From an uncultured Verrucomicrobiales bacterium (GTDB taxonomy: Bacteria; Verrucomicrobiota; Verrucomicrobiia; Verrucomicrobiales; Akkermansiaceae), in contig CALGMJ010000167.1 in assembly GCA_937958875.1 (NCBI GenBank), positions 1 to 39,107 on the forward strand: DNA of 39,107 nucleotides, read 5' to 3'. Position numbers and translations under genes: made by a program. The notes beneath the pieces are model-generated. The model saw only the letters and a list, made by a program, of their open reading frames with translations, was not told where the DNA came from and did not search any database. Shown one piece after another: positions 27,280 through 39,107 of this stretch. How positions within the stretch are numbered: the stretch's first letter is position 1; the number at the start of each line of letters is the position of its first letter.

Positions 27280-27634
27280 AAAAAGAACTCAATTGATGAT
27301 TCCGCAAAGCATTCTCTTGAACCTCGATCGAATTTCAATCGACTAAAAATATCATTTCATTGTGATCAACTGAAATATCATCTCTGATTAGATCAGGAAA
27401 TTGGCGCTTATTCTTAGTATTTTTGCGAAATGACTTCTACAGAATTCATCTAAAAAGGCCGAGTACCTTCGTGGACGTTAAGTTCAAATCCAGCACCATC
27501 AGGAGCGCCAAATGCCCATAGTTTTTGCAGATGATACTGGGAGAACCACCGGAACTCCCCTCACCGCAGTTACCAAAGCCTGGAGGATCAGGGTAATCCG
27601 CTTTTAAGAAAATTCGCTCAAGGGACTCAGGGGT
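27280..27634. other. AT-rich intergenic stretch with no convincing gene
   Basis: No supported gene is present. A minus-strand frame of ~36 codons (27560-27450) ends in 'GAPDGAGFELNVHEGTRPF' and a stop. It has no start and is closed upstream by a TGA at 27563-27561, so it may be the end of a decayed gene. GGCGCT at 27403 and AGCGCC at 27504 are inverted matches, but no tRNA fold results. The next segment carries the palindromic repeat. Confidence 0.4.
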
Positions 27635-27841
27635 CTACACAAGGGAGCTACCCAGACTAAAGTAAGCGTAATTGCCTTAAAGATCGTTTTTAAAACCACT
27701 GATTACTCTGATTACCCTGATTTCACTGATGCCGAGATTACGGAACCTGAGAAAATCAGGGTAATCAGAGTAATCAGTGGTTTTCTTACGCAACACCTCA
27801 AATTTCGCCCTGCCTATGCTCTGAATTTCTCCCTTGTGGAC
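27635..27841. repeat. MITE-like palindromic repeat, copy A, with a 32-bp perfect hairpin core
   Basis: The ends carry inverted CACAAGGGAG (27638-27647) and CTCCCTTGTG (27829-27838), each followed inward by five bases and CAGA. The core is a perfect 32-bp inverted repeat (27692-27723 against 27753-27784) with a 29-base loop. Each arm consists of 9-base units around CTGATTA (27697, 27706, 27715, 27724). A second copy begins at 39023. No transposase is nearby. An open minus-strand frame (74 codons, 27901-27677) and an open plus frame run through it but are probably artefacts of the 9-base period. Confidence 0.75.
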
Positions 27842-28033
27842 ATAGAGCTCGACATACAGTGGGCCTGCAAGAAGTAGTGAAAGCGCAAATATTTTAGGCA
27901 CTAAGGAGTAACACCCCTCAATCGCAGTTTTAGCACCTTACGAATCTCGCGTATTCTACCAATTCTGCTCGAGACGATTTCCCCACACTTACGCTTGCGT
28001 GTCGCTGCAGCATCACCTCTAATCCGCGCTGCC
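27842..28033. other. Leader region of carA
   Basis: No gene or clear terminator is seen between the repeat and carA. There is no ATG in the carA frame here; an in-frame TTG at 27995 is an alternative carA start. No convincing promoter was found. Confidence 0.3.
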
Positions 28034-38886: not shown

Positions 38887-39022
38887 GTCGCTGCTCCCGA
38901 CGTCTAACAGCTTCTTGGGTTCTCGGGGCGTTTATGTAGTTTGTGAGTGTCTCTTTGGTGACGGAGCTTCTCGGTAGTTCGAGTTAACCACCAGAGAGCT
39001 CAAACGTTGGGGTCCAGGGCTC

Positions 39023-39107
39023 CTACACAAGGGAGTAATGCAGACTAAAATCTTGCTAGAGTGATCGCCATTACTTGGAAAATCGTTTTAAAAACCACTG
39101 ATGCCTA
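39023..39107. repeat. MITE-like palindromic repeat, copy B, truncated by window end
   Basis: CTACACAAGGGAG (39023-39035), CAGACTAAA and ATCGTTTT then CCACTGATGCC (39095-) match copy A at 27635 in the same order, with about 11 extra bases between. The core hairpin, if present, lies beyond the window. The stretch 38887-39022 before it holds no gene. Confidence 0.7.

Follow-up and report, generated by a model that had tools for sequence, protein, structure and literature searches.

What kind of genetic element is the palindromic sequence, built from 9-base units, that lies in a contig of an uncultured Verrucomicrobiales bacterium, and how might it have come to be there? The window analysed here is the whole stretch of 39,107 nucleotides presented above, which is contig C167 of a 253-contig assembly that is 77% complete. 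A first-pass annotation had described a non-coding palindromic element with inverted ends, and had offered two readings for it, namely a dispersed miniature element or a transcribed structured RNA. The features that we recognise in the window are as follows.

27628..27849, forward strand: MITE copy, 222 bp, an old copy, defined by a search of its own genome, alignment of ends and comparison with the consensus
27628..27647, forward strand: left terminal inverted repeat, CAGGGGTCTACACAAGGGAG
27692..27723, forward strand: left arm of the palindrome, in 9-base units, CCACTGATTA CTCTGATTA CCCTGATTT
27724..27752, forward strand: loop, 29 nt, gene-free
27753..27784, reverse strand: right arm of the palindrome, pairing with the left arm at 32 of 32 positions
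27829..27849, reverse strand: right terminal inverted repeat, with only CTCCCTTGTG recognisable and the outer bases decayed
39015..39107, forward strand: second MITE copy, young type, which ends inside the palindrome at the contig end

Much of what had been read by eye from the letters proved accurate. The core is indeed a 32-bp perfect inverted repeat, at 27692-27723 and 27753-27784, and shuffling the window element 60 times gave no perfect inverted repeat longer than 9 bp. The CTGATTA-type 9-base units were likewise borne out, as just two 9-periodic stretches occur in the whole window and both are MITE copies. Inverted ends are present as described, although the element begins at 27628, with CAGGG, and not at 27635. 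The warning that a period of nine leaves open frames that can pass as a gene was also justified: these frames are a by-product of the period, no conserved gene was seen, and a protein-coding element was rejected. Two other candidates were set aside, since the region holds no terminator or promoter beyond chance, and weak Rfam matches at E values up to 0.1 (mostly to microRNA models) are hairpin look-alikes below gathering scores.

The element is far from confined to two copies. A search of its own genome returned 66 matching pieces, and all 39 further loci that were fetched carry the MITE, which together with the two in the window makes at least 41 copies with shared, defined ends. The outcome named at first pass as a refutation, two copies alone with no shared boundaries, is not what we see. 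They are short, lack a transposase gene and measure about 226 bp, with inverted ends of the form CAGGG(C/T)(C/T)CCTACACAAGGGAG. Full copies are 223-232 bp long, with the exceptions of L032 (208 bp) and L037 (367 bp, with extra DNA). Over whatever part is present, most copies have 94-100% identity with the family consensus, and an older group has 76-90%. The main copy in the window is 78.6% identical (over 27628-27838), and the second, which had been spotted at first pass and runs from 39015 to the contig end at 39107, is 98.9% identical across 88 bases. Contig ends are reached by 12 of the 41 copies, as is usual for repeats. Two copies of 143-144 bp (L044 and L046) are without the palindrome and look like deletions that retained part of the left arm; among the copies examined, none has a clean gap in the place of the palindrome.

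Target duplications in the ISAs1 family of insertion sequences are 8-10 bp long. Both ends are present in 17 copies of the MITE, of which L011 is without a left flank, leaving 16 testable copies; a row for L046 at 253 bp had paired the wrong ends and was left out. A 10-bp duplication with at most one mismatch flanks 8 of these 16. The 10-mers at the exact ends are identical in four copies (L010, L013, L044 and L046) and match at 9 of 10 positions in three more (L019, L032 and L037), and in L015 a 10/10 duplication is shifted by one base. A clean 10-bp duplication is absent from the other eight, the window copy included, through decay or recombination. No target duplication was found at the window copy, which has lost its right end to decay beyond CTCCCTTGTG; L012 has a near-match duplication displaced by a few bases. 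When flanks were mispaired as a control, 1 of 272 pairings gave 8 or more matches, and this one had joined two rows from a single locus.

To see where the copies insert, we deleted the MITE and one duplication in silico, joined the flanks and sought open reading frames of at least 150 codons. Of 14 copies, 2 have such a frame running across the joined flanks, compared with 88% of 300 positions drawn at random from the window, and thus the copies are mostly intergenic. One of the two exceptions is close to the beginning of a MoxR-like ATPase frame (recognised by eye), and the frame in the other was not recognised.

A candidate partner element is found in the same genome. The inverted ends of the MITE also bracket positions 2338-3613 of contig C206, whose protein matches the ISAs1 family transposase model NF033564 with an E value of 2.4e-102, as well as Pfam PF13808 and PF01609. 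The sequence CAGGGTCCCTACACAAGGGA(G) is found at the right end of the MITE, at both ends of the C206 interval (20 bases) and in a genus-mate (G020). The frame on C206 has a C-terminal end unlike that of the genus-mate and continues past the right end into the neighbouring gene, and therefore this IS copy looks damaged. It has no target duplication, and no further full-length copy of the IS was found in this 77%-complete genome, the other nine among the matches listed being partial. The genus-mate holds an intact IS with the same ends, except for one base at the right end, which encodes a transposase of 395 aa and has GTTGCCTAAC on both sides as a 10-bp duplication. Some match to the IS is present in 14 of 27 genomes of the genus, this one included. 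What MITE and IS have in common is the 20-22 bp ends alone, and the interior of the MITE is unrelated to the IS. For comparison, ISArsp11, a published IS of the ISAs1 family, carries the CAGGG end CAGGGCTGATGCAAAGTCG and makes a duplication of 10 bp (PMC6305408).

This genome has another ISAs1-family transposase, intact and 386 aa long, which lies near a contig end (L049, positions 20-1180 of contig C51) and is without MITE-type ends. Part of the approximately 150 bp of extra DNA inside the L037 copy, on contig C17, resembles the sequence beside this second transposase.

The locus is an ISAs1-family MITE, with terminal inverted repeats like those of the IS and with target duplications in the 8-10 bp range at the level of the family, unlike the window copy itself. 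The earlier suggestion of a dispersed miniature element is thus well supported by copy number, shared ends and duplications, and the further idea that it might be mobilised in trans agrees with the presence of IS elements with matching ends, both in this genome and in its genus-mates. A related IS of the same cell or lineage would provide, in trans, an ISAs1-family transposase that binds the CAGGG...ACACAAGGGAG ends, moves the MITE and leaves the 10-bp duplication. The portion of the MITE and ISAs1 literature covered by our search yielded no description of an ISAs1-family MITE with such a core.

The 9-base core is a different matter. It is not derived from the IS and belongs to a separate, pan-bacterial class of palindromes, a distinction that the first-pass annotation overlooked. 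In this genome every match to the CTGATT nonamer belongs to a MITE locus, and the pattern is absent from 13 other genomes sampled from the genus. Across the family, however, patterns of the CTGATT type occur in 27 of 117 genomes (this one included), some of which have 20-39 matches, compared with at most one match per genome for a reversed-pattern control. Among 240 genomes of the phylum, the strict pattern is found in one and a looser pattern in 16. Hairpins are present at 14 of 30 related loci in the family, and no paired ISAs1 or MITE ends were found around these hairpins; weak one-sided matches to MITE ends at L408 and L411 look like chance. The motif of the core, CCAC.GATT.CAC.GATT flanked by AA/TT, forms hairpins free of ISAs1 ends both among family-mates and across many phyla.

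A pattern scan of named genomes recovered at least 120 stretches, from Planctomycetota, Verrucomicrobiota, Bacteroidota, Alpha- and Gammaproteobacteria, Acidobacteriota, Chloroflexi, Desulfosporosinus, Treponema and others. A hairpin forms within 550 bp at 65 of the 120 stretches listed, compared with none when the arm was reversed without complementing it. The arms of the window core have the make-up that defines the class, being inverted tandem units of 8-11 bases with an outer end of (A)ACCAC or TCCAC. No match was found to the core in plasmids, nor to one strict form of the nonamer pattern in viral contigs. We found no description of nonamer palindromes or of the six arm sequences looked for in the literature searched, which excluded most subscription journals. 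One genome (G262) carries many times a nonamer block, CCGCAGATTACGCTGATGACGCAGATT, with a conserved left flank (L303-L318); no inverted partner of this block was found, and it appears to be a one-armed relative.

Nonamer repeats of this kind lie, we assumed, near genes for GxxExxY proteins. A first trial on 80 of the 120 listed nonamer loci gave such a gene at one of the 80. When all 120 were considered, five were found to hold a GxxExxY gene (L128, L203, L222, L227 and L236), in every case directly between inverted nonamer arms, and the other 115 have none in the stretch examined. A 9-periodicity scan covered 33 GxxExxY loci, with some control contigs chosen for nonamers or for a GxxExxY gene.

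The converse test began from the genes. From 59 GxxExxY loci in the phylum, three with short flanks were dropped, and a bracket was scored when an 18-bp inverted repeat with at most three mismatches had an arm no more than 150 bp away on each side. Such a bracket is present at 47 of the 56 remaining loci, counting as a miss one locus (L359) whose right flank is shortened by a contig end, compared with 0 of 56 for control windows shifted approximately 735-900 bp outward. These loci are a non-random sample, being the best-scoring among 135 of 240 phylum genomes plus 15 nonamer-holding genomes. Outside the phylum, among records from a plasmid collection, five of eight loci are bracketed and none of eight controls. 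Taken together, the bracketing test and the full set of 120 listed loci settle the link between GxxExxY genes and nonamers. Sequence and period differ greatly among the bracketing arms, and only some of the arms belong to the GATT nonamer type seen in the window. In one genome (G192), positions 167-578 of L319 comprise arms that match at 20 of 20 positions and enclose just the GxxExxY gene, for a total of 412 bp. The same arrangement is found in a family-mate (L419:1095-1530), where the hairpin enclosing the gene is one of the 30 related loci mentioned above.

Several individual loci deserve mention. A GxxExxY gene is held tightly between inverted nonamer arms at L128:3436-3941 and at L098:1463-1905. 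In Sphingomonas parapaucimobilis (NZ_CP155749.1, L368:490-2654), an armed GxxExxY gene lies between fabD and fabG, as if the unit had been inserted into a fatty-acid synthesis operon. On a Fusobacteria bacterium plasmid (CP102406.1, L371), the gene is accompanied by a direct, non-inverted repeat of approximately 22 bp, CAGATTTAATCCGTGTACCTAT.

The protein itself is both common and poorly characterized. Matches to GxxExxY occur in 135 of the 240 phylum genomes sampled, which is over half, and the family is listed as TIGR04256 in NCBIfam and as PF13366 (PDDEXK_3). In an alignment of 16 GxxExxY proteins, D63, K75, Q87 and Y91 are invariant and E73 is nearly so, and D...ExK...QxxxY is the pattern of RecB/Cas4-type PD-(D/E)XK nucleases. 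Cas4 models of PADLOC weakly match two of three GxxExxY proteins, with E values of about 0.003. Judged by these motifs, GxxExxY is probably a Cas4/RecB-like protein of the PD-(D/E)XK type and a putative nuclease. A sequence comparison of one GxxExxY protein with solved structures gave nothing convincing (best E value 0.61), and a search with one such protein in phages gave no match. We found no description of this class of genes and palindromes in the literature searched, insofar as its text was accessible.

Units of the class can be present or absent at a given site, and can lie one within another. In one genome (G237), a unit with arms ACCACAGAGGACACAGAG is situated between two conserved genes that look by eye like gatA and gatB. 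The DNA flanking it matches two genus-mates (G296 and G202) at 83-88%, and the unit is absent in both. In G296, the site (L391, C12:270300-271600) has in its place 109 bp that form a palindrome of another sequence, and in G202 it has 564 bp with another frame. The arms of the G237 unit recur across all three genomes, and 8 of the 18 places fetched are two-armed hairpins. Two of these eight (L388 in G296 and L399 in G237) have differently armed palindromes nested inside them.

Given these findings, we consider it very probable that the feature is an old copy of a non-autonomous ISAs1-family MITE whose core is a captured, gene-less palindrome. The MITE would have taken up a gene-less palindromic element as a passenger, and transposition of the MITE would then have amplified what it had captured. 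The capture step is itself proposed rather than seen, as no clean palindrome-free copy of the MITE exists among those examined. The loop of the core holds no GxxExxY gene, the genome holds no gene-bearing copy with the same arms, and the three GxxExxY genes that it does hold (L051-L053) have arm sequences unlike the core. Thus, the most fitting reading of the core is a copy of the class that lacks the gene, and it can be called so by arm type alone.

A broader reading, for and against which we see about equal weight, makes the core one of the members without a gene in a class of selfish palindromes, pan-bacterial and so far undescribed, that could be termed 'GxxExxY elements'. The complete unit would be one small PD-(D/E)XK gene held tightly between inverted arms of 8-11-base units, often situated inside an operon, between its genes. 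Hairpins that share these arms but lack the gene would spread in the same genomes, presumably through action of the GxxExxY nuclease on fold-back DNA, by analogy with RAYTs, which are thought to spread REPs. Palindromes of this type might also hitch-hike inside other mobile elements, as would be the case here with the ISAs1 MITE.

The most serious alternative is that the 222-bp unit is indivisible. The palindrome would have evolved within the MITE, for example as a hairpin that blocks transcription or regulates transposition, and its likeness to sequences elsewhere would reflect convergence of simple 9-base repeats. This is what one might expect from a genome in which nonamers reside at MITE loci, from a genus whose 13 other sampled genomes lack them, and from a failure to find the MITE cleanly free of its palindrome. 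However, hairpins with the same motif occur in family-mates and many phyla away from ISAs1 ends, with controls at or near zero, and palindromes of the class nest in each other elsewhere, as at L388 and L399. We therefore regard an indivisible unit as unlikely.

A REP-like palindrome moved by a Y1 (HUH) transposase is far less probable still. A gene linked to palindromes that are scattered through intergenic DNA does recall the REPtron arrangement, and the reported hosts of REPs include a Verrucomicrobium and Planctomycetes (PMC3733652). In contrast, the element in the window has ISAs1 ends and belongs to a family with 10-bp duplications, and the gene found between arms of this kind is of the PD-(D/E)XK type and not a Y1 transposase.

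A transcribed structured RNA or a regulatory hairpin under selection, the second of the original proposals, is equally hard to credit: the predicted fold is strong (z scores of -9.6 as DNA and -9.0 as RNA) and the window arms are perfect despite 22 differences from the consensus at 136 aligned body positions, but no Rfam family reaches its gathering score (0 matches in the window) and no terminator was found in the region, which leaves the palindrome alone. Nor is pairing kept in general, as other old copies have arm mismatches at four (L027), five (L029) and three (L030) of 28 positions; the comparison of body divergence leaves out L013 and L018. The two window arms are identical to each other, differ from the consensus at the same 4 of 28 positions and both carry one additional 9-base unit. 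This pattern suggests that they were homogenised by templated repair across the fold-back.

As a MITE, this element is ordinary in kind. Its ISAs1-family ends appear to have driven its multiplication in the genome of one of the Verrucomicrobiota, where it has reached at least 41 copies and breaks the assembly. The class of genes and palindromes is the more novel part. GxxExxY proteins are common in the phylum and carry nothing but the name of a motif. The frequency of brackets (47 of 56 loci versus 0 of 56 controls) and the existence of gene-less hairpins with the same arms give rise to a testable idea, namely that these proteins might be mobile-element nucleases found together with their substrate. 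If true, this would account both for a common protein family and for many of the 9-base-repeat palindromes in bacterial intergenic DNA.

Comparison with known systems places the two parts of the element differently. With the ISAs1 family, the MITE has in common inverted ends that start with CAGGG, 10-bp duplications and an NF033564-type IS in the same genome and genus. It differs in that these ends are all that it shares, its interior being a palindrome of 9-base units. The nonamer class resembles the REP/REPIN and RAYT systems (REPtrons) in having intergenic palindromes, an arm-flanked gene and scattered gene-less copies. In REPtrons (PMC3733652), however, the gene is a Y1 HUH transposase rather than GxxExxY, and the palindromes are GTAG-tagged REP hairpins rather than arms of 8-11-base tandem units. 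In other genomes, the GxxExxY gene is enclosed by inverted nonamer arms that agree in type with the window core, whereas the window loop of 29 nt is gene-free. Finally, the fold-back MITEs of Anabaena sp. 90 are likewise short, multi-copy, mostly intergenic and strong in secondary structure (PMC3542288); they are recorded there as having no matching IS in their own genome, whereas the MITE in the window has one.
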